DNA of 64,000 nucleotides from Bacteroidales bacterium (GTDB lineage: Bacteria > Bacteroidota > Bacteroidia > Bacteroidales > GCA-2748055), in NCBI GenBank assembly GCA_029210585.1, contig JARGFP010000005.1:1-64000 (forward strand), written 5' to 3'. The position numbers and the translations under genes were made by a program. Below, piece by piece: positions 7,766 to 56,811 of this stretch (position 1 is the first letter of the stretch; each line of letters begins with the position of its first letter). The notes under the pieces were generated by a model. The model searched no databases. It saw nothing but the letters and a program-made list of their open reading frames with translations, and was not told the origin of the DNA.

Positions 7766-8770
7766 TCAGGCTATCATCTCCCTGGTAACTTCATTTTTGC
7801 TGCTTTCCCCTTTCGAATATACAGAAATATTCTCCATTGTAGTGTGTGCAATTTCCGTAAGTGCTTCCTTTGTCAGGAATGCCTGGTGGGCTGTGATCAG
7901 GACGTTGGGGAAGGTGCTCAGCTGCATGATTTTTTCGTCGTCAATGATATGTTCAGACAGATCCCTGAAAAATAGTTTCTCTTCCTCTGCATATACGTCT
8001 ATGCCAAGATAACCCAAATGCTTGTTTCGCAGCGCTGCAATGACATCTTCGGTATTGATCAGTTTTCCGCGGCTGGTATTGATCAGCATGGCACCCTTTT
8101 TCATGATACCAAGTGTCTCTTTATTTACCAGTTGGTGTGTCTCTGGTGTGAGCGGGCAATGAAGAGATACGATGTCAGAAGTCCTGAAAACATCTTCAAT
8201 CGAAGCATATCTGACCCCCTTTTCACGAAGGGAGGAATCGGGATAAGGATCATATGCCAATACATTGCATCCGAACCCCATCATGATCCCGGCGAATACC
8301 TGACCAATCTTACCCGTGCCAACCACTCCAACCGTCTTCTTTTCCAGGTCGAACCCTACGAAACGCTCCAGTGAGAAATTGGCATCCCTTACACGGTTAT
8401 AGGCTTTGTGTGTTTTACGGCTCAGTGTAAGGATAAGTGCAACTGCATGTTCAGCAACTGCATGGGGAGAATATGCCGGCACACGCATGACACGAATACC
8501 CAGTTCGCTTGCTGTTTCAATGTCTACGTTGTTGAAGCCGGCACAGCGCAAGGCGATCATGCCGATCTTCAGCCCTGCGAGTGCATGCAATGTATCAGCA
8601 TTCAGCTTGTCGTTCACGAATGCACACACTGCATCAGCACCTGCGGCTAACCTGGCGGTCTTCCGGTTCAGTGGAACCTCGTAGTAATCCAGTTCATATC
8701 CATATGTTTTATTTTCATGGTCCAGGAATTCAATATCATATGATTTGGCGGAGTAAACTGCAATTTTCAT
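7766..8770 (-). CDS. ldhA: D-lactate dehydrogenase (2-hydroxyacid dehydrogenase family)
   Basis: 334 residues, the usual length of LdhA-type enzymes that reduce pyruvate to D-lactate with NADH. The substrate domain starts MKIAVYSAKSYD and includes LRCAGFNNVD. The Rossmann motif is VGVVGTGKIGQVFAGI (about residues 146-161), with the NAD-selecting acidic residue in LAYDPYP. The catalytic triad is visible as R in NTSRGKLINT, E in DVYAEEEKLFF and H in LITAHQAFLT; the EEEKLFFRD segment is typical of fermentative D-LDH. It is divergent from the hydrogenase operon across a 278-bp intergenic region, so two NADH-disposal routes (lactate and hydrogen) share a regulatory region. No -7 consensus is clear for this strand. 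Confidence 0.9.
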   Translation of the reverse strand: MKIAVYSAKSYDIEFLDHENKTYGYELDYYEVPLNRKTARLAAGADAVCAFVNDKLNADTLHALAGLKIGMIALRCAGFNNVDIETASELGIRVMRVPAYSPHAVAEHAVALILTLSRKTHKAYNRVRDANFSLERFVGFDLEKKTVGVVGTGKIGQVFAGIMMGFGCNVLAYDPYPDSSLREKGVRYASIEDVFRTSDIVSLHCPLTPETHQLVNKETLGIMKKGAMLINTSRGKLINTEDVIAALRNKHLGYLGIDVYAEEEKLFFRDLSEHIIDDEKIMQLSTFPNVLITAHQAFLTKEALTEIAHTTMENISVYSKGESSKNEVTREMIA

Positions 8771-9048: not shown

Positions 9049-9393
9049 ATGAAAATTCAGGAAATTGCAAATATAATTAATGGCCAGGTACTTACTTCCG
9101 GGTTGGATGCCGGCAGGGAAATCAGTCAGGCATTCTCTTCGGACCTGATGAGTGATGTGCTGACGCGTGACTATGAAGATACCGTATTGATCACCGGGCT
9201 GGCCAATTTGCAGGCGATCCGTACCGCGGAAATGTCGGACATCGGGCTGATTATTATCGCACGCGGCAAAGAGGTTGGTGAGGAGATGATCCGCCTGGCT
9301 GAATCAAGTGACATCGTTCTTATAAAAAGTGCGTATTCCCTGTTCAGGATTTCCGGACTGTTGTATGAAGCAGGGATCAAACCGATATTCTGA
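9049..9393 (+). CDS. DRTGG-domain protein, hydrogenase operon
   Basis: 114 residues, first gene of the hydrogenase operon. It matches the DRTGG-type domain (alpha/beta, found beside CBS domains in phosphotransacetylase and alone in [FeFe]-hydrogenase clusters): IQEIANIINGQVLTSG, the variable DLMSDVLTRDYEDTVLITG centre (cited as DLMSDVLTR and DTVLITG), LQAIRTAEMSDIGLIIIA, and the end ISGLLYEAGIKPIF. No catalytic residues are known for the family. Its TGA stop overlaps the ATG of the HATPase gene (TGATG), indicating translational coupling. A second DRTGG gene lies at 11285. Such proteins have been noted beside sensory hydrogenases in anaerobes; a nucleotide- or ligand-sensing role is inference. 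Confidence 0.75.
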   Translation: MKIQEIANIINGQVLTSGLDAGREISQAFSSDLMSDVLTRDYEDTVLITGLANLQAIRTAEMSDIGLIIIARGKEVGEEMIRLAESSDIVLIKSAYSLFRISGLLYEAGIKPIF

Positions 9394-9809
9394 TGCTGCA
9401 GACCTATAAAGTTACCGGGGGTGATTTTGTTAATGCAGGAAAGGCATCCAGCTCAGTGAAGGGCATTCTTAAACAACTGAATGTTCTTGCCGGGCTGATC
9501 AAGCGGGTGGTGGTGGCGTTGTATGAAGCAGAAGTGAATGTCGCTGCGCATGCATATTCCGGAAACATCCTGGTGGAGATTGAATCTGACCAGGTGCGCA
9601 TCAGGGTGACGGACAGCGGACCTGGAATTGAAGATATCCAGATGGCCATGAAGGAAGGATTCAGCACCGCATCGAAAGAGGTCAGGGAAATGGGGTTTGG
9701 TGCAGGGATGGGACTTGCAAATATTAAAAAGAACAGCGATACATTCAACATTACCAGTGTTCCGGGAGAGGGCACAACAGTGGAGATTATAAACAAACTG
9801 ACAGATTGA
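9393..9809 (+). CDS. RsbW-like ATP-binding protein (HATPase), putative anti-sigma/serine kinase type
   Basis: 138 residues forming a lone GHKL ATPase domain with no histidine phospho-acceptor. The N-box is EAEVNVAAHAYSGN, the G1 box DSGPGIEDI and the G2 box GAGMGLANIKKNSD, an arrangement typical of RsbW/SpoIIAB-like serine kinases and anti-sigma factors. The start overlaps the stop of the DRTGG gene by one base, and its stop overlaps the next gene's start by four bases. No STAS antagonist or PP2C phosphatase gene is in the operon, so a classical partner-switch is not complete here. A role in relaying a redox signal from the hydrogenase-like protein encoded next is inferred from the fixed gene order only. 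Confidence 0.82.
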   Translation: MLQTYKVTGGDFVNAGKASSSVKGILKQLNVLAGLIKRVVVALYEAEVNVAAHAYSGNILVEIESDQVRIRVTDSGPGIEDIQMAMKEGFSTASKEVREMGFGAGMGLANIKKNSDTFNITSVPGEGTTVEIINKLTD

Positions 9810-19812: not shown

Positions 19813-21047
19813 TTACCTCACAACCTTCACTTTATCCACAAACGCACTGTTTCCAGAATTCACAATGATTATATAGATTCCGTTCTCCATTGATTCGGTT
19901 CCCATAACATAGTCATGGCCACCTGTCGGAAGTACGCCAAGATACCTTTCGGTAACTTTTTGTCCAACTATATCATATACTTCAATGGAAACTTCAGAAG
20001 AATTGCTCATTTCAAACCTGAAATTGATAAGGTCTGAAGCAGGATTTGGATAGACAACAGCATTGCTGAAAATCGAAATCTCTTCTTTAATATTTGTCGC
20101 TTCAGGCTGAATGACCGCGTCGATCACGTGTACCACGCCATTGGGAGCTTCATAGTCAGCGAATACAACTTTGGCATCGTTGATAAATACATCTCCATTG
20201 GAGATGGTAACCGTGATATCGGAACCTTCCAGTGTGGTGAATGTGTCACCATCGGAGAGGCTTGATGACAAAGCGGTTGCACCTACTACCTGGTACTTAA
20301 GGATCTCAGCAAGCTGTCCTGTGGGATCTGCGAGCAGTGCATCGATGGTCGCCTGACCGAGTGCAGCAAAGGCATCATCGGTGGGAGCGAACAATGTGAA
20401 TGTGCCGTCAGCTGAGAGCGCACCTGCGAGTTCAGCGGCAATAACAGCAGCCTCGAGTGTCTCGTGCCGCGGGCTGTTGACCACGATGTCGACAATAGAG
20501 GTGGGCTGTGTGATCACCGCGTCGATAAAATGTATAACACCTGTATAGGTCCTGATGTCGGTTTTAATAATCTTGGCCTGGTTGATAAATGCTTTCCCTT
20601 CATAAAGTGAAATAAAAGCATCAGTTCCTTCACTCATTTCCAGGATCTGTCCGTCGGAGAGATCCTTAGCGTAAATTTCCCCTGAGGCAAAGTGGTACCT
20701 CAGGATTTTGATAAGTTCTTTCGGATTCTGGAAGAGGTATTTCAGTTTCTCCTCACCCAATGCTTGAATGCATCATTGGTGGGAGCGAAAAAGGTATAAT
20801 ATCCTCCCTTCGATTCATTGAAATCAAAATCTGTTTTATCAAAGGCGGTTTTTAACAAAGAATATTCCGGTTCATTGAGAAAATCAAACTCAGAATCTGT
20901 CTGAGCAAGGAGAACATTACCTGAGAGGAATACCATGACCAATGCCATGAGAAGGAAACGGATACTAAAAAGATCTATTTGTGCATTGCGAGGTAAAATT
21001 TTAGGTTTCAGAAATTTTGTTTTTGGATTGTACATAACTAAACACAC
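19813..21047 (-). pseudogene. Two-fasciclin-domain secreted protein with T9SS type A tail, frameshifted
   Basis: Two reading frames make one protein. The first (21047 to 20742) has a signal anchor (FLLMALVMVFLSGNVLLAQ) and the start of a fasciclin domain up to YYTFFAPTNDAFK, then runs out of frame to a stop. The second (20760 to 19813) resumes with LGEEKLKYLFQNPKELIKIL, finishing domain 1 (ending GVIHFIDAVI). Domain 2 is complete (TLFAPTDDAFAALG to GVVHVIDAVI). The tail (YPNPASDLINFRF, then YDIVGQKVTE) is a T9SS type A sorting domain. Expected codons AAG-GCA-TTG read AAGCATTG near 20765, a one-base loss. Without correction the product is a useless 101-residue piece. A sequencing error or a true recent mutation are both possible. 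Fasciclin proteins are usually adhesive surface proteins. Confidence 0.82.
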
Positions 21048-21914: not shown

Positions 21915-23282
21915 ATGGAACAAGTAAAAACCTACATTGATCAAAACAAGGAACGTTTCCTGGAAGAACTTTTTGAACTGATCCGGATTCCTTCCGTCAG
22001 CTCAAGCCAAATCCACAAGCCTGATATGCTTAAAACGGCAAAAGCTGTAAAAGAGGCGTTGATCAATGCCGGTGCTGACAAGGCGGAAATTCATGAAACC
22101 GCTGGTCACCCGGTCGTTTATGGTGAAAAGGTCATTGATGCCTCGAAGCCTACAATACTGGTATACGGGCACTACGATGTCCAGCCTGCTGAACCATTGG
22201 AACTTTGGAAATCTCCCCCGTTTGAACCAGAAATCCGGGAAGGAAAAATCTATGCAAGAGGTGCAGATGATGACAAGGGGCAGTTGTTCATGCATGTGAA
22301 GGCTTTCGAATTCTTGGTAAGCAGCGGTAAGCTTCCCTGCAATGTTAAATTCATGATTGAAGGTGAAGAAGAAATTGGTTCCCCAAGCCTCAAACAATTC
22401 TGTAAGGAAAACAAGGAACTGCTCAAATCAGATGTGATCCTTATCTCTGATACTACTATGATTTCCATGGACATTCCTTCCATCACCACCGGATTGCGCG
22501 GACTGAGTTACCTCCAGGTAGAAGTAACGGGTCCGAACAGGGACCTGCATTCAGGATTGTATGGAGGTGCAGTTGCCAACCCGGTGAATGTACTTTCCAA
22601 AATGATTGCGCAGCTGACCGATGAAAATAATCATATTACCATTCCCGGATTTTATGATGATGTGATCGAAGCATCTGACGAGGAAAGGAAAGAGATGGCC
22701 AAGGCGCCATTTGACCTGGAAGCTTATGAGGATGCCCTTGATATCGAAACTGTACAGGGTGAAAAGGGCTATTCCACTATTGAACGGACCGGTATCAGGC
22801 CAAGCCTTGATGTATGCGGAATCTGGGGTGGTTTTACCGGGGAAGGCGCCAAAACTGTGCTGCCTTCCAAAGCATATGCAAAGATATCCATGCGACTTGT
22901 TCCCAACCAGGATTCCCACAAAGTGGATCAGTTGTTTGAAGCATATTTCAAATCCATTGCACCAGCAAGTGTGAAAGTAGAGGTAAAGAGTCTTCATGGA
23001 GGTCAGGGTTATGTTGCTCCTATCGATACAGCAGCATACCAGGCCGCAAGTAAGGCCGTGGAGGCAACCTTTGGAACAAAGCCTGTGCCTTTCAGGAGCG
23101 GAGGGAGCATCCCCATTGTTGCCGACTTTGAAGAGGTATTGGGCGTGAAATCTATTCTGCTCGGTTTCGGACTTGAATCAGACGCCATTCATTCCCCGAA
23201 TGAAAACTATCCACTCGAGAATTTTTACAAGGGGATTGAAACGATTCCCTATTTCTACAAATATTTTTCCGAGATGCCCTGA
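21915..23282 (+). CDS. M20-family dipeptidase / metallopeptidase
   Basis: 455 residues. M20 zinc-peptidase motifs are clear: YGHYDVQPAEP (first metal histidine and catalytic Asp), GADDDKGQLFMH (bridging Asp), EGEEEIGSPSL (catalytic Glu and metal ligand), GPNRDLHSGLYGG (dimerisation-domain histidine) and FRSGGSIPIV. The C-terminal metal histidine is in ESDAIHSPNEN. Length and motif spacing match the cytosolic non-specific dipeptidase/CNDP-like group, which cleaves dipeptides and contains a lid domain. Cytoplasmic, with no signal peptide. A strong terminator follows 27 bp after the stop. Confidence 0.92.
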   Translation: MEQVKTYIDQNKERFLEELFELIRIPSVSSSQIHKPDMLKTAKAVKEALINAGADKAEIHETAGHPVVYGEKVIDASKPTILVYGHYDVQPAEPLELWKSPPFEPEIREGKIYARGADDDKGQLFMHVKAFEFLVSSGKLPCNVKFMIEGEEEIGSPSLKQFCKENKELLKSDVILISDTTMISMDIPSITTGLRGLSYLQVEVTGPNRDLHSGLYGGAVANPVNVLSKMIAQLTDENNHITIPGFYDDVIEASDEERKEMAKAPFDLEAYEDALDIETVQGEKGYSTIERTGIRPSLDVCGIWGGFTGEGAKTVLPSKAYAKISMRLVPNQDSHKVDQLFEAYFKSIAPASVKVEVKSLHGGQGYVAPIDTAAYQAASKAVEATFGTKPVPFRSGGSIPIVADFEEVLGVKSILLGFGLESDAIHSPNENYPLENFYKGIETIPYFYKYFSEMP

Positions 23283-23309
23283 TCTCTTTTATCATATAAC
23301 AAACAGAGA

Positions 23310-23338
23310 GGCTGTTACCGGGTGGTAACAGCCTTTTT
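23310..23338 (+). terminator. Rho-independent terminator after the dipeptidase gene
   Basis: Perfect 10-bp stem GGCTGTTACC / GGTAACAGCC with a 4-nt loop and five T. Confidence 0.9.
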
Positions 23339-23780
23339 GCTTTTCAGTAATGACCAGTTTTGTGGAATTCACACAACCAGTTCACGGGTAACGATTCGAA
23401 ATGTTCAAACAGGATTTGAAATATGCTGTCAGGAAGCCTGTTCTTTTTGCCCTGTCATTTTTTACTACACCATTCGATTATTTTGATATAAATTTAATTT
23501 ATACATTAATAATATAGGGGGTATGCAAAATATTATACAAATATATAAACAGGAAATAAAGTTACGTATATTAAATATAAAACATAAAAAAAGTTTAAAC
23601 TGTAAGTTATAGGAGGCATAAAAATTTAAAATATTTTATTGTATAATATTTAAATATCAACATATAATATATACAATTGCACCATAAAATAATAAATAAA
23701 TACAATAACCCCTATAAAAAAGGGGGTATAAGATTAAAAAAGAATAAAAACAGCAAAATTTCTAATAAACAAGCAATCTT
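23339..23780 (+). promoter_or_regulatory. Long AT-rich leader region of glutamine synthetase with G-rich motifs
   Basis: Intergenic stretch of about 440 bp with no convincing gene; the last 320 bp are extremely AT-rich. Against this background stand three short G-rich blocks: AGGGGGTAT at 23516, ATAGGAGGCATA near 23608 and the inverted repeat ACCCC (23708-23712) with GGGGGT (23722-23727), which lies 53 bp before the start codon. The last is repeated before the next glutamine synthetase gene. No TAnnTTTG element is evident, so the promoter may be unusual or activator-dependent. Confidence 0.5.
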
Positions 23781-24704
23781 ATGAAATCAAAATTAGAGTA
23801 CATCTGGCTGGACGGTTACAAGCCCACCCAGATGATGAGAAGTAAAACACTTGTCGTTGAAGGTTTCAGCGGGAAGGTAGAGGATGCACCCCTGTGGTCA
23901 TTTGACGGATCTTCCACGATGCAGGCTTCCGGCAACAGTTCAGACTGCGTATTAAAACCAGTTTTTGTTTGTCATGATCCCCAGAGAAAAAACGGTTACC
24001 TGGTGATGGCCGAGGTTATGAATGCTGACGGGACACCTCATGCTTCAAATGGCAGGGCAACCATTGACGATGATGATGATGATTTCTGGTTTGGATTTGA
24101 GCAGGAATATGTATTATGGGACCTGGATCACCATACGCCACTGGGATTTCCGGCACCGGGTTACTATCCTCCTCCCCAGGGTCCTTTTTATTGCTCGGTT
24201 GGTGCAGAATTTAATATTGGGCGCAATATCGTTGAAGAGCACCTTGATGCCTGTATTGAAGCCGGATTGAATATTGAAGGAATCAATGCAGAGGTAATGA
24301 AGGGGCAATGGGAATACCAGATTTTTGCAAAAGGTGCAAAAGCATCAGGTGACCAGGTCTGGGTAGCCAGGTACCTTGCAGAGCGTGTTGGAGAAAAATA
24401 TGGAGTACGTATCAACATCCATCCAAAACCTGTAAAAGGAGACTGGAATGGTTCCGGTATGCATGCGAATTTTTCAAACGGAGCGATGCGTGAGCAGGGT
24501 GGTGAAAAGCTGTTCACTTCCATCTGTGAAGAATTTGGGAAGTATATCGAGGAACACATCGATGTATATGGCACTGATAACGAGGAGCGTCTGACTGGTC
24601 TGCACGAAACCCAATCCATTGATAAATTCTCATATGGTGTGTCTGACCGTGGGGCATCCATCAGGATTCCCATAAGCACTATTGAGGCTGGTTGGAAAGG
24701 GTGA
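23781..24704 (+). CDS. Type II (eukaryotic-type) glutamine synthetase, ended early by an in-frame TGA
   Basis: 307 codons, then TGA. The beta-grasp start KLEYIWLDGYKPTQ, substrate loop WSFDGSSTMQ, FGFEQEYVLWD, GQWEYQIFAKGAK, HPKPVKGDWNGSGMHANFSN and GVSDRGASIRIPI identify GSII, which makes glutamine from glutamate, ammonia and ATP. Family members in Bacteroidota are about 337 residues. At 24702 the codon expected to be TGG (Trp, as in GWKGWLEDRRP) is TGA. The same frame continues for 29 codons encoding the conserved tail. The truncated product lacks the EDRRP segment, which in vertebrate GS holds active-site Glu and Arg residues, so it should be inactive unless the stop is read through or the base is a sequence error. 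Confidence 0.85.
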   Translation: MKSKLEYIWLDGYKPTQMMRSKTLVVEGFSGKVEDAPLWSFDGSSTMQASGNSSDCVLKPVFVCHDPQRKNGYLVMAEVMNADGTPHASNGRATIDDDDDDFWFGFEQEYVLWDLDHHTPLGFPAPGYYPPPQGPFYCSVGAEFNIGRNIVEEHLDACIEAGLNIEGINAEVMKGQWEYQIFAKGAKASGDQVWVARYLAERVGEKYGVRINIHPKPVKGDWNGSGMHANFSNGAMREQGGEKLFTSICEEFGKYIEEHIDVYGTDNEERLTGLHETQSIDKFSYGVSDRGASIRIPISTIEAGWKG

Positions 24705-24794
24705 CTGGAAGACCGGAGGCCGGCTTCAAATGCAGATCCCTACAAGGTAGCATCGGTTATTGTTAAATCAGTAAAAAAGGCTGAGTTAATCTGA
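24702..24794 (+). pseudogene. C-terminal coding remainder of type II glutamine synthetase beyond the in-frame TGA
   Basis: In the same frame as the glutamine synthetase, codons 24705-24791 encode LEDRRPASNADPYKVASVIV followed by KSVKKAELI and a normal TGA at 24792. This is the conserved GSII C-terminus, with no further damage. The first stop is followed by CTG (TGA-CTG), similar to known leaky UGA-CUx contexts. The rho-independent terminator sits 26 bp after the second stop, as expected for a gene ending at 24794. Confidence 0.8.
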
Positions 24795-24820
24795 TCAACC
24801 GAAATTTGTTCTATATTTTC

Positions 24821-24855
24821 AGGGGTGCTTGTATTGGCAGGCACCCCTTATTTTG
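24821..24855 (+). terminator. Rho-independent terminator after type II glutamine synthetase
   Basis: 8-bp stem AGGGGTGC / GCACCCCT with a 12-nt loop, followed by the T-rich tail TATTTTGTT. Confidence 0.75.
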
Positions 24856-24861
24856 TTCTCA

Positions 24862-24881
24862 ACCCTTAAAAAAAAGGGGGT
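24862..24881 (+). promoter_or_regulatory. ACCC...GGGGGT inverted-repeat motif upstream of GSIII
   Basis: ACCC (24862-24865), a TT and eight A, then GGGGGT (24876-24881), 57 bp before the GSIII start. A near-identical arrangement lies 53 bp before the type II glutamine synthetase start (23708-23727). This is a candidate shared operator for nitrogen control; the binding protein is unknown. Confidence 0.45.
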
Positions 24882-24938
24882 CTTCTTTTTAAAATGATGT
24901 TTTAGCTGTAACTTGCGCCAAATTTTAAAAGTGATATT

Positions 24939-27125
24939 ATGGCAATCATCCGTTTTTCAGCCCTTGAAACAGTCAATCACAGGAAGCCTGTGGAAGTGGT
25001 TCCCCCTGCAAAAAGTATTACAGATTATTTTGGAAAAAATGTATTTGATGATGTGAAAATGCAGAATTATCTCTCGCGGGATGCATATGATCATGTGAAA
25101 AGAGCGATCTCGCGTGGAACCCCGATTGACAGGAAAATGGCCGATACGGTAGCTATCGGGATGAAAGCCTGGGCAGTGGAACTGGGTGCTACACATTATA
25201 CGCATTGGTTCCAGCCATTAACAGGTGGAACAGCAGAAAAGCATGATTCGTTTCTGGAATATACTGATAACGGAAGTGTAGTGGAATCTTTCTCAGGAAA
25301 AGCGCTTGCACAGCAGGAACCAGATGCATCATCATTTCCAAGCGGCGGACTGCGCAATACATTTGAAGCAAGGGGATATACCGCATGGGATCCTTCTTCT
25401 CCGGCGTTTGTAATTGGAGACACCCTCAGTATTCCAACGATTTTTATTTCCTACACGGGTGAGGCGCTGGATCATAAAACTCCGTTGCTCAGGGCTTTGA
25501 ATGCCATCGATAGGGCCGCCACCGAGGTATGCCAGTATTTCGACAAAAACGTGGGGAGTGTCAGGGCCAACCTGGGCTGGGAGCAGGAGTTCTTCCTTGT
25601 CGACGAAGCACTTTATTACGCCAGGCCCGATCTTGCACTTACCGGCAGGACGCTGATGGGACATGCATCGGCCAAGGACCAGCAGTTGGATGACCATTAT
25701 TTCGGGTCCATCCCGGAGCGCGTGAGTGCATTCATGAAAGAGCTTGAATTCGAGTCTCTTAAGCTGGGGATCCCCATCAAAACCAGGCACAATGAGGTTG
25801 CGCCCAACCAGTACGAGGTGGCACCTATTTTCAGTGAATGCAACCTTGCAGTGGACCAGAATGTGCTGACCATGGAGCTGATGAAGCGTATTTCCCGGCA
25901 CCATGGATTCAGGGTGCTTTTCCACGAAAAACCTTTTAAGGACATTAATGGTTCCGGTAAGCACAACAACTGGTCACTTTCCACAGATACCGGAGTGATA
26001 TTGCATTCACCCGGAAAGAATCCGAAATCGAACCTGCAGTTCCTCACCTTTATTGTGAATACGATTAAGGCGGTATATGATCACCAGGACTTATTGCGTG
26101 CAAGTATCCTGACTGCCACCAACCAGCACAGGCTGGGAGCCAACGAGGCACCACCGGCAATCCTGTCGTGTTTCCTTGGTGCCGAAGTGTCGAAAATGCT
26201 TGACCAGATTGAGGAACAGGTGACCAACAGGAAAATGACACCAGATGAAAAAACAGAACTGAAACTCGATATCGGTAAGATTCCTGAAATTTTGCTTGAC
26301 AATACGGACCGCAACCGGACATCTCCATTTGCTTTCACAGGTAACCGTTTCGAATTCAGGGCGGTTGGAGGAAGCGCCAACAGTGCCACTCCCATGGCAG
26401 TATTGAATGCTGCCGTGGCTGCACAGCTTACTGAATTCAGTAAATCGGTTGAGAAACTGATCGCCAAGGGGGTGAAGAAGGATGAGGCTATCTTCCAGGT
26501 ATTGCGGGAATTGATTATTGCCTCAAAACCGATCCGGTTTGAGGGTGACAATTACAGTGAGGACTGGGTAAGGGAGGCGAAAAAGCGCGGATTAACCAAC
26601 ATCACTGATATCCCTGAAGCAATCTCTGCTTTCCTCAGCGAATCTGCCAAGAAACTATTTAAATCAATCGGCGTCCTGGGGGAGCATGAACTGGAAGCAC
26701 GTGTTGAAGTGATGTACGAGAATTACATCATGAAAATACAGATTGAGGCAAGGGTACTCGGTGACCTGGCCATCAATCACATTGTGCCCACTGCAGTTAA
26801 ATACCAGAATGTACTCATGGAGAATGTCACCATGCTCAAAGAGCTGTATGGTGATGAGTATGGCCAGCTTTCCGGTAAGAGGGTGGAGCTGATCAGGGAA
26901 ATTTCAGACAGGGTGACGCAAATTAAAAACCTTGTAAATGAGATGGTGGAGGCACGAAAAGCGGCCAACAAGATCACCCCTGCCGAGAAACGGGCCAAAG
27001 CATATTCCGCAAATGTATTCTCTTATCTTGAAAAGATCAGGTACCACATTGATAAACTGGAGCTCATCGTGGATGACGAAATGTGGCCCCTTCCCAAATA
27101 CAGGGAGCTTTTATTCAGTAACTGA
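24939..27125 (+). CDS. glnN: Type III glutamine synthetase
   Basis: 728 residues, the usual GSIII size and roughly twice that of GSII. GSIII-specific segments are present: LGATHYTHWFQPLTGGTAEK (N-terminal), NLGWEQEFFLVDE, KTRHNEVAPNQYEVAPIF, HEKPFKDINGSGKHNNWSLS and FTGNRFEFRAVGGS. The first four build the ATP, metal and glutamate sites of the dodecameric enzyme. The C-terminal 150 residues are the helical GSIII domain. The gene is separated from the interrupted type II gene by a terminator, so it has its own promoter, but the two share an upstream motif. It could supply glutamine if the type II enzyme is defective. Confidence 0.96.
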   Translation: MAIIRFSALETVNHRKPVEVVPPAKSITDYFGKNVFDDVKMQNYLSRDAYDHVKRAISRGTPIDRKMADTVAIGMKAWAVELGATHYTHWFQPLTGGTAEKHDSFLEYTDNGSVVESFSGKALAQQEPDASSFPSGGLRNTFEARGYTAWDPSSPAFVIGDTLSIPTIFISYTGEALDHKTPLLRALNAIDRAATEVCQYFDKNVGSVRANLGWEQEFFLVDEALYYARPDLALTGRTLMGHASAKDQQLDDHYFGSIPERVSAFMKELEFESLKLGIPIKTRHNEVAPNQYEVAPIFSECNLAVDQNVLTMELMKRISRHHGFRVLFHEKPFKDINGSGKHNNWSLSTDTGVILHSPGKNPKSNLQFLTFIVNTIKAVYDHQDLLRASILTATNQHRLGANEAPPAILSCFLGAEVSKMLDQIEEQVTNRKMTPDEKTELKLDIGKIPEILLDNTDRNRTSPFAFTGNRFEFRAVGGSANSATPMAVLNAAVAAQLTEFSKSVEKLIAKGVKKDEAIFQVLRELIIASKPIRFEGDNYSEDWVREAKKRGLTNITDIPEAISAFLSESAKKLFKSIGVLGEHELEARVEVMYENYIMKIQIEARVLGDLAINHIVPTAVKYQNVLMENVTMLKELYGDEYGQLSGKRVELIREISDRVTQIKNLVNEMVEARKAANKITPAEKRAKAYSANVFSYLEKIRYHIDKLELIVDDEMWPLPKYRELLFSN

Positions 27126-53742: not shown

Positions 53743-55242
53743 TTATCGTAGACGTTTATTAAGTAGCCAGGGGGTAATATTCTTTCCCTTATCCACATTC
53801 AGTTTTTTTCCTTCTGCTTCTTCGAGGTCCCTTGCAAAATCATATATTGCGAAGAAAGCGGCGAGCATTTCCTCTTCGGGTTCGGAATGATAATGGATCT
53901 TCAGTTCTGAACTCAGGAAAGAGGTGTTAAAGTATCCTTTCCTAAAATTCCTGTTCTGCAATACCGCCCTGCAGAAGGAAAGGGTGGTCTTTGTTCCCTT
54001 GATCCAGAATTTGCGGATGGCGTTGCTGGATTCCTGCAGTGCTTTTTCCCGGTCTTCCCCGTACACGATCAGTTTGGCGATCATGGAATCGTAATAGGGG
54101 GTGATCACTGATCCGTCGTGCACACCCGTATCCACCCGTACATTTTTACTCTCCGGCCAGGAAATTTTTTCGATGGTACCCAGGCTTGGGGAGAATCCTG
54201 ACTGAACATCCTCGGCATTGATCCTGAACTCGATGGCATGTCCCTTCAGCCTGATGTCCTTTTGTGCAAACAGCAGTTTCTCTCCCTGGGCGACCCTGAT
54301 CATCTGCTCGATCAGGTCGATCCCGGTCACCATTTCAGTAACGGGATGTTCCACCTGTATCCTGGTGTTCATCTCCATAAAATAAAACTTCCTGTCGGCA
54401 TCCAGCAGGAATTCCACGGTTCCGGCGGAGAAATAGCCTACACCCTTGGCGATATCGACAGCTGCATTCCCCATCTCTTCCCGCAGTTCGGGGTCGAGCG
54501 CCGGGGAAGGGGATTCCTCTATTAATTTCTGGTGTTTGCGCTGGATGGAGCATTCCCGCTCACCCAGGTGCACGATGTTACCGTGTTTGTCGGCCAGGAT
54601 CTGAAATTCGATGTGCCTGGGTTCTGCCACGTATTTTTCGATAAACATGGCCGGATCATTGAAGGCCTTTGCCGATTCATTGGATGCGAGGTTGTACATC
54701 CGCTCCACTTCTTCTTCATTTTCTGCAACCCGCATTCCACGTCCGCCTCCACCTGCTGCTGCCTTCAGGATCACCGGGTACCCAATGGCGTTTGCGAACC
54801 GCCTGGCATAATCTGCATTCAACAGTGTGCCCTTGCTTCCGCGCAGCAGGGGTACATTGTTTTTACGTGCGATATCCTTGGCCACAGTCTTGTTTCCCAT
54901 GTTGTAGATAACCCCGGACGAAGGGCCGATGAAATTGATGTTTTCCTCTTCGCATCTGCGGGCAAAAATGGGATTTTCAGCGAGGAAACCGTAGCCGGGA
55001 TGCACGGCATCGATGTTGTTTTCCCTGACCGCGTGAATAATTCTTTCAATATCGAGGAATTCCGGCGTGTCACTCAGGCTTTCAGAGAAATCGATAATAT
55101 CATCGGCTTCATCCAGGTACCAGGCACTGGGTTCTTTGGCTGTTTTAATCGCATAGGTCCGTATTCCCATCCTGCGAGCCGTCCGCATAATACGGATGGC
55201 AATTTCACCCCGGTTGGCGATAAGTATGCTTTTGATCTTCAT
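53743..55242 (-). CDS. accC: Biotin carboxylase subunit of acyl-CoA carboxylase
   Basis: 499 residues. ATP-grasp motifs: ILIANRGEIAIRIMRTAR, HPGYGFLAENP, KAAAGGGGRGMRVAE (glycine-rich loop), HIEFQILADKHGN, and EMNTRIQVEHPVTE (metal and active-site Arg, Glu and His). It adds CO2 to biotin on the carrier with ATP. About 450 residues are standard; the extra 45 at the C-terminus are a helical extension (LEEAEGKKLNVDKGKNITPW) seen in subunits paired with PccB-type carboxyltransferases. Flanked by 9- and 10-bp gaps, it is tightly co-transcribed with the other carboxylase subunits. Confidence 0.95.
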   Translation of the reverse strand: MKIKSILIANRGEIAIRIMRTARRMGIRTYAIKTAKEPSAWYLDEADDIIDFSESLSDTPEFLDIERIIHAVRENNIDAVHPGYGFLAENPIFARRCEEENINFIGPSSGVIYNMGNKTVAKDIARKNNVPLLRGSKGTLLNADYARRFANAIGYPVILKAAAGGGGRGMRVAENEEEVERMYNLASNESAKAFNDPAMFIEKYVAEPRHIEFQILADKHGNIVHLGERECSIQRKHQKLIEESPSPALDPELREEMGNAAVDIAKGVGYFSAGTVEFLLDADRKFYFMEMNTRIQVEHPVTEMVTGIDLIEQMIRVAQGEKLLFAQKDIRLKGHAIEFRINAEDVQSGFSPSLGTIEKISWPESKNVRVDTGVHDGSVITPYYDSMIAKLIVYGEDREKALQESSNAIRKFWIKGTKTTLSFCRAVLQNRNFRKGYFNTSFLSSELKIHYHSEPEEEMLAAFFAIYDFARDLEEAEGKKLNVDKGKNITPWLLNKRLR

Positions 55243-55251
55243 AACAAACGT

Positions 55252-56811
55252 TTACAGTGGTATATTGCCGTGTTTGCGCGTGGGATTGGTAACGTATTTA
55301 TTCTCGAGTGCGAGGAATGCAGATTTCAATTTTTTTCTTGTGAAGGAAGGATCGATCACTTCGTCGATGAACCCTTTTTCGTCTGCGACATACGGATTGG
55401 CAATCTCATCCCTGTATTTCACAGCAAGTTCTTTTTTGAGCCTGGCTGGATCTTCAGATGCTGCCAGTTCCTTCCTGTACAGGATGGCAACGGCACCTTC
55501 CGGTCCCATCACGGCGATTTCTGCCGTAGGCCATGCGAAGTTGAAATCTCCTCCAAGGTTTTTACTGTTCATCACGCAATATGCTCCGCCGTAAGATTTT
55601 CTGAGGATAACAGTAATCCTGGGTACGGTGGCATCTGCATAGGCATAGAGCAGTTTGGCACCGTGCCTGATGATGCCACTGTGTTCCTGGTCGATTCCCG
55701 GGAGGAAGCCTGGCACATCTTCCAGTGTAAGCAGCGGAATGTTGAAGGAATCACAGAACCGTATAAAGCGTGCTCCCTTGGTGGAGCTGTCGATATCGAG
55801 TGTGCCTGCGAGAACCTTGGGCTGGTTGGCGATGATGCCGATCACTTTCCCATCCAGTCTTCCGAAACCAACCACCAGGTTTTGTGCAAATCGTTCACTG
55901 ATCTCATAGAAAGAGCGCTTATCGACGATGAGGTTGATCACATCCTTCACATCATAGGGTTTGTTTGCATCGTCCGGTACGATATCCCGCAGCTTCTCTT
56001 CCACATCCCTGGTTTCATCATCATCCGGTTCAGTCTCCGGACAATTTTCCAGGTTGTTGGAAGGCAGGTAGGAGATCAGCCTTCTGACACCCATCAATGT
56101 ATTCTCTTCGTCCTCGAAGATCATCTGAGCCACGCCGCTTTTCTTGGCATGCACCTCTGCGCCCCCGAGGTCATCGAAGGTAACATCTTCATTGAGCACT
56201 TCCTTGACCACATTCGGGCCGGTTACAAACATGTAACTGGTTTTATTGGTCATGAAAACATAATCGGTAATCGATGGCGAATACACGGCTCCTCCGGCCG
56301 CCGGTCCCAGGATCACAGAAATCTGGGGTATCACGCCGGAGGCCTGGACGTTCCTGTAGAAGATTCCGGCATAGCCCGCCAGGCTTGCAACGCCTTCCTG
56401 GATACGGGCTCCTCCTGAATCGATGAGTCCGATGATCGGGGCCCCCATCTTGAGCGCCATGTCCTGGAGTTTCATGATTTTGGCGGCATGGATTGACCCG
56501 AGGGATCCTCCCATGATATTGAAATCCTGGGCGTAGGCAAATACCAGTCGGCCGTGCACCTGTCCGTGCCCTATGATTACACCATCGCCGAAGGATCCCT
56601 TGATCTTTCCGAAATCTCCTTCCGATTTGGCAGATGACACGTAGGCATCCACTTCTTCGAAAGTGTTTTCATCAAACAAGATTGCTATACGTTCCCGCGC
56701 GGTGAGTTTTCCTTTGGCATGCTGTTTTTTCTTAGATTCTGCGTCGTATTGTGACTCGAAAATCTGCTGCCTTTCAAGGAATTTTTTGAAATTTCTTCCG
56801 TTTACATCCAT
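55252..56811 (-). CDS. Acyl-CoA carboxylase carboxyltransferase (beta) subunit, PccB type
   Basis: 519 residues. Carboxyltransferase features: GKLTARERIAILFDENTFEE (start), GRLVFAYAQDFNIMGGSLGS (oxyanion hole), DSGGARIQEGVASLAGYAGI, GPAAGGAVYSPSITDYVFM, and GAKLLYAYADATVPRITVIL with KSYGGAYCVMNSK. Acyl-CoA substrates may be propionyl-, acetyl- or methylmalonyl-CoA. PccB and decarboxylase (MmdA) sequences are close, and with accC and a carrier but no membrane decarboxylase subunit in the operon, a carboxylase (propionyl- or acetyl-CoA) is favoured. First gene of the operon; a good -7 element lies 73 bp upstream. Confidence 0.92.
   Translation of the reverse strand: MDVNGRNFKKFLERQQIFESQYDAESKKKQHAKGKLTARERIAILFDENTFEEVDAYVSSAKSEGDFGKIKGSFGDGVIIGHGQVHGRLVFAYAQDFNIMGGSLGSIHAAKIMKLQDMALKMGAPIIGLIDSGGARIQEGVASLAGYAGIFYRNVQASGVIPQISVILGPAAGGAVYSPSITDYVFMTNKTSYMFVTGPNVVKEVLNEDVTFDDLGGAEVHAKKSGVAQMIFEDEENTLMGVRRLISYLPSNNLENCPETEPDDDETRDVEEKLRDIVPDDANKPYDVKDVINLIVDKRSFYEISERFAQNLVVGFGRLDGKVIGIIANQPKVLAGTLDIDSSTKGARFIRFCDSFNIPLLTLEDVPGFLPGIDQEHSGIIRHGAKLLYAYADATVPRITVILRKSYGGAYCVMNSKNLGGDFNFAWPTAEIAVMGPEGAVAILYRKELAASEDPARLKKELAVKYRDEIANPYVADEKGFIDEVIDPSFTRKKLKSAFLALENKYVTNPTRKHGNIPL

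Follow-up and report, generated by a model that had tools for sequence, protein, structure and literature searches.

A premature in-frame TGA in an otherwise undamaged type II glutamine synthetase gene of a Bacteroidales bacterium: probably a very young nonsense allele

Introduction

Young pseudogenes, UGA read-through and glutamine synthetases (GS) of known structure are the closest described counterparts of the locus presented here. In the youngest Salmonella pseudogenes (PMC2916853), one inactivating change is found in an otherwise undamaged and apparently dispensable gene. Read-through of UGA is known in E. coli, where near-cognate tRNAs for Trp or Cys are held responsible (PMC5373646). 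In the case of human GS, PMC4737493 describes R340, within the EDRRP-type loop, as contacting both the reaction intermediate and the gamma-phosphate of ATP, and links the R341C substitution to congenital glutamine deficiency.

The window, i.e., the whole stretch of DNA that was analyzed, covers the initial 64 kb of contig 72, which measures 223,433 bases and belongs to a draft Bacteroidales genome (4.61 Mb, 116 contigs). The window contains a type II glutamine synthetase gene (GSII) interrupted by a TGA. The comparison with the systems above leads to the following points: (i) with respect to the young nonsense pseudogenes described in PMC2916853, the window GSII presents no difference in kind, and its putative inactivating change is unique to the window among close relatives, as in a recent pseudogene; (ii) the locus shares with UGA read-through by a near-cognate tRNA-Trp (PMC5373646 and PMC13092985) a UGA with an open frame behind it but, in contrast to the systems described there, it shows no sign of a weakened RF2, no altered or four-pair-stem tRNA-Trp and a stop that is not conserved in relatives; (iii) the window GSII, when read through, matches type II glutamine synthetases with solved structures, 4bax chain A being the closest, but the gene as it stands ends before EDRRP.

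The interrupted gene and its tail

The features of the gene and of the stretch behind it are as follows.

23781–24704, plus strand: GSII open reading frame (ORF) of 307 codons, closed by the premature TGA
24702–24704, plus strand: premature TGA, codon 308, followed by CTG, in the reading frame of the GSII ORF
24705–24794, plus strand: conserved C-terminal tail of 29 codons with EDRRP, closed by a TGA stop
24821–24848, plus strand: terminator-like hairpin between GSII and the next gene (consensus match only), 26 bases beyond the second TGA

After the premature TGA the same frame remains open for 29 codons, LEDRRPASNADPYKVASVIVKSVKKAELI, and the second TGA is found at 24792–24794. The original prediction had described an in-frame TGA in GSII, an intact 29-codon tail closed by a normal stop, a terminator 26 bp past that stop and the loss of EDRRP. 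All of this is recovered in the frame opening at 23781, the terminator as a terminator-like hairpin matching the consensus, and EDRRP does lie behind the TGA.

The match to the family profile, which spans its whole length, identifies the gene as a putative type II glutamine synthetase (GSII/GlnII). The truncated ORF covers positions 1–297 of the 333 positions of the NCBIfam GlnII model (E 5.2e-110); when the stop is read through, the match to NCBIfam NF041605 extends over positions 1–328 of 333 (E 7.8e-121). The corresponding scores are 368 bits (truncated) and 403 bits (read through), for a curated cut-off of 500 bits. Three intact relatives score 407, 403 and 390 bits, i.e., likewise below that value, and the cut-off seems ill-suited to this branch of the family. 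Sixteen solved glutamine synthetase sequences match the read-through GSII, with E values from 6e-98 to 6e-83. The lowest is that of 4bax chain A, over residues 3–329.

The residues E, D, R and R of EDRRP are invariant in 121/121 references, and P is found in 115. Residues 339–341 of human GS would correspond to D311–R313 of the window GSII, on the basis of the motif. The EDRRP loop would be absent from the translated product of the interrupted gene, the active site of which would be incomplete. Translation would end at residue 307 and would yield a protein devoid of both the C-terminal segment and the active-site loop EDRRP; such a truncated GSII should be inactive. Traces of full-length GSII could stem from background misreading of UGA.

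The residue replaced at codon 308

A conserved Trp had been proposed at the site of the stop. This is not borne out. Among 123 homologues (the window and one duplicate being left out), codon 308 corresponds to Trp 59 times, Arg 47 times and Tyr 17 times. These homologues are a non-random sample: a set of 10, then 29 of the 70 other phylum-sample matches, the best 80 of one scan and 5 order-wide sequences, less the duplicate (L063, identical with contig L006); any further overlap of the two collections was left in place. The GWKGWLEDRRP reading given for homologues does exist as the Trp consensus of the family, but it is absent from the lineage of the window, where Arg is found. The four nearest relatives, 82–93% identical, all have Arg at this position, in the motif WKGRLEDRRP. 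Their codons are the following.

G003 (93% identical): AGA
G002 (89% identical): CGG
L064 (82% identical): AGA
G156 (82% identical): AGA

Since Arg occupies codon 308 in these four relatives, the premature stop most likely arose from an Arg codon, which is the simplest history for the aligned codons. With a probable Arg codon, instead of a conserved Trp, at the site before the change, the chief argument for a reading of UGA as Trp is gone. More generally, a family-wide consensus (here Trp) can mislead where the near relatives carry another residue (here Arg).

A stop at codon 308 is found in one of the 124 aligned sequences (123 homologues plus the window), i.e., in the window only. There is no internal stop in the GSII of G003, G002 and G156. 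Two of the 71 phylum-sample rows (G251 and G360) list one TAA, and their alignments show no stop. Stops occur elsewhere in the GSII of L118 (position 335) and L074 (inside an insertion); neither corresponds to codon 308.

Genetic code and read-through

TGA ends 74 of the 188 ORFs chosen on the 223-kb contig, in agreement with the earlier statement that TGA is a normal stop here and that a genome-wide UGA = Trp code is unsupported. In favor of such a code there is nothing beyond the single codon of GSII. Against it stand the stop usage, a complete RF2 gene with an autoregulatory TGA, and the presence of Arg instead of Trp at codon 308 in near relatives. The hypothesis is rejected on stop usage and RF2, and we give it practically no chance of being correct.

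The RF2 gene is complete and its catalytic loop reads RSGGAGGQ, the form associated with normal activity. The prfB gene (L207, reverse strand near 2510) has a +1 frameshift site, AGGAGG followed by CTT TGA C, which we take to be the classic RF2 autoregulatory pattern. The presence of its own UGA-C in this site shows RF2 at work.

Functional read-through would mean that UGA-C is decoded by a near-cognate tRNA-Trp often enough to be of use, leading to an active GSII with Trp at codon 308. This is consistent with the undamaged tail behind the stop, with Trp as the commonest residue of the column, with UGA-C being also the stop of the prfB frameshift site and with the E. coli precedent. The following observations run against it. 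No relative was found with a stop at codon 308, hence no conserved signal, and RF2 is intact. The RNA 3' of the stop folds about like shuffled sequences (z −1.1; folding is equally good or better in 25 of 200 shuffles), and C follows 13 of the 74 TGA stops of the contig. The tRNA-Trp is ordinary, with a CCA anticodon and a full five-pair anticodon stem. It is identical over 74/74 bases to the tRNA-Trp of G001 and G003 (G002 and G156 give no full-length match), and it has G24, A9 and C27:G43, in what we take to be the usual numbering. We consider functional read-through very improbable. The option of a programmed event, raised in the original prediction, found no evidence in its favor.

The read-through forms of tRNA-Trp described in PMC13092985 include none that matches that of the window genome. 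ARAGORN names 35 tRNA genes (150 of the 177 candidates having been scored), none of them with a TCA anticodon, and a suppressor tRNA is rejected on this count. A 36th match to Rfam (29.4 bits, contig 61) was not called a tRNA.

Background read-through could insert Trp, a residue that the family accepts at codon 308. A more speculative proposal, to which we attach scant weight, is that the TGA is tolerated: UGA-C read as Trp would give a small, perhaps regulated, dose of GSII, the stop acting as a dial on a spare enzyme. Were read-through true, a metabolic enzyme of Bacteroidales would be made via a leaky UGA, which would be surprising.

The extension of coding score past the stop was also ranked for the 188 ORFs. 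The ranking is noisy and the GSII tail comes 14th. The high-scoring extensions look like following genes in the same frame. Just above the GSII tail is a TGA-ended ORF (54532–56418) that is antisense to ORFs of 499 and 519 codons.

Selection and absence of decay

GSII differs from that of the sister species G003 by 164 synonymous and 30 nonsynonymous changes, the synonymous sites being saturated. When the changes are assigned to branches (codon 308 excluded), the window branch has 15 nonsynonymous and 69 synonymous changes and the G003 branch 11 and 56, respectively (Fisher p = 1.0). For the type III gene next door (GSIII), the synonymous and nonsynonymous counts are 145 and 52 on the window branch and 138 and 58 on the other branch. 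Behind the stop, codons 309–336 comprise 12 identical, 15 synonymous and 1 nonsynonymous codons in comparison with G003.

Simulated relaxation of selection along the final 5% of the branch adds about 17 (neutral distance 0.5) or about 33 (neutral distance 1.0) nonsynonymous changes, for 15 observed overall. This timing is an order of magnitude only, since both neutral distances had to be assumed on account of the saturation of synonymous sites. At columns conserved at 90% or more, the single departure proper to the window GSII is A189S (column 99% Ala); relatives depart from such columns once (G003 and G002, each) or three times (G156).

GSII is without decay and, judging from these substitution patterns, appears to have been kept under strong selection until very recently. 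The absence of an excess of nonsynonymous change implies that the stop is either very young, or not present in cells (sequence error), or harmless. The view that the clean tail reflects a recent or non-damaging change thus fits both the substitution counts and the lack of decay.

Sequence error or mutation

A base error would look identical to a nonsense mutation. The rival explanation is a single-base error of the sequence or of its consensus, or a minority variant taken into the consensus, the living population having an intact GSII. The remainder of GSII, undamaged and under selection, is as expected from it. Moreover the assembly has draft status, with 116 contigs, and the same-genus relative G002 is a MAG.

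The contig was surveyed for other breaks with the translations of 144 ORFs (100 codons or more) taken from stretches of G003, G001 and G002; 135 matched and only the 125 matches with at least 50% identity were judged. Six rows of the scan contain stops: (i) two are GSII itself; (ii) in three (102372, 58206 and 39598) the stop falls among the six codons that open the alignment and is taken as upstream of the true start; (iii) the last one (9406 and 9379) concerns an ORF that runs antisense to another, at 9393–9809. Four rows cover less than 85% of the query: in three the match is short at the N-terminus, by 29, 27 and 73 residues, and the remaining one corresponds to a fasciclin-domain gene, located 4 kb upstream of the GSII stop.

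19816–21047, minus strand: split gene of a secreted fasciclin-domain protein, with a frameshift around 20745–20763

The fasciclin domain is spread over one ORF and the next frame, whereas the G003 homologue (L181:7223-9235) is a single ORF of 670 codons, in which the domain pair is duplicated. A laxer scan of contig 72 for split genes revealed no break beyond the fasciclin gene.

The two breaks, 4 kb apart, are compatible with the onset of decay in the strain as well as with locally poorer sequence. Because of the second one, a sequence error stays a serious rival and its odds are raised. Nevertheless, GSII and the fasciclin gene are the only ones broken in their true frame among the 125 proteins (76 merged blocks, 79,416 bases), i.e., the contig is not error-rich, and the genome has a completeness of 99.13% and a contamination of 0.38%. 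An error is on the whole a tentative explanation, possible but not the one we would choose.

Outside the window, contig 72 has at 118814–118914 an ORF of 33 codons followed by a stop, with no continuation seen. It is likely a gene remnant; by its motif it presumably resembles the start of a family 2 glycosyltransferase.

Accessory nature of GSII

The neighborhood of GSII comprises the following genes.

21915–23282, plus strand: upstream ORF of 455 codons, marker of the conserved neighborhood
24939–27125, plus strand: intact type III glutamine synthetase (GSIII), 728 codons, no internal stop (Pfam GSIII_N, E 4.7e-77)

GSIII, which had been noted as lying next door, is intact, and it is stop-free in the eight genomes tested (8/8). 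The own genome (G000) has a third GS ORF on contig 42, of 520 codons, with both Pfam GS domains and no internal stop; for a part of 348 residues, the closest NCBIfam model is type I GlnA, with a score below the cut-off.

The order GSII–GSIII is preserved in G003 and G002. On the contrary, G001 (same genus, 98% complete) has no GSII and the 455-codon upstream gene directly precedes GSIII. In this stretch of G001 there is no GSII match at E 1e-15 and none is seen in the gap between the flanking genes. Comparison of L184 (about 8239–8590, G001) with 23283–24938 of the window reveals no visible GSII remnant, i.e., an empty or cleanly deleted site. With the own genome included each time, GSII is found in 4 of 28 genomes at the level of the family, in 13 of 393 at that of the order and in 71 of 395 in the phylum sample. 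GSII is an accessory gene with a patchy distribution.

We favor, with moderate confidence and from comparative sequence data, a very young nonsense allele of a dispensable accessory GSII. The gene would have been long under strong selection before a nonsense change occurred at codon 308 (Arg in close relatives). The cell could spare GSII, with an intact GSIII adjoining it behind the terminator-like hairpin and a third GS gene elsewhere; these other genes presumably make up for its loss. The change itself is presumably real in cells. Some observations weigh on the other side: the absence of further damage is equally expected from an error or from tolerated read-through, the fasciclin frameshift fits decay but also poorer sequence, and A189S departs from an almost invariant column. 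Of the three options originally listed, nonsense mutation (favored) and error (serious rival) stand, and read-through is left without support beyond background level. A fresh nonsense change in an accessory enzyme matters mainly for annotation: the gene is best called an interrupted GSII, not a recoded one.

Other observations concern the distribution of GSII. In another genome of the order (G696, contig 45), two adjoining GSII genes (L218 and L222) are 76% and 67% identical to the window GSII. GSII sequences 70–72% identical are found in contigs labelled Granulosicoccaceae, SAR202, Euryarchaeota, Nomurabacteria and Poribacteria (L066, L068, L074, L087 and L097), reflecting either wide gene transfer or mis-binned contigs.
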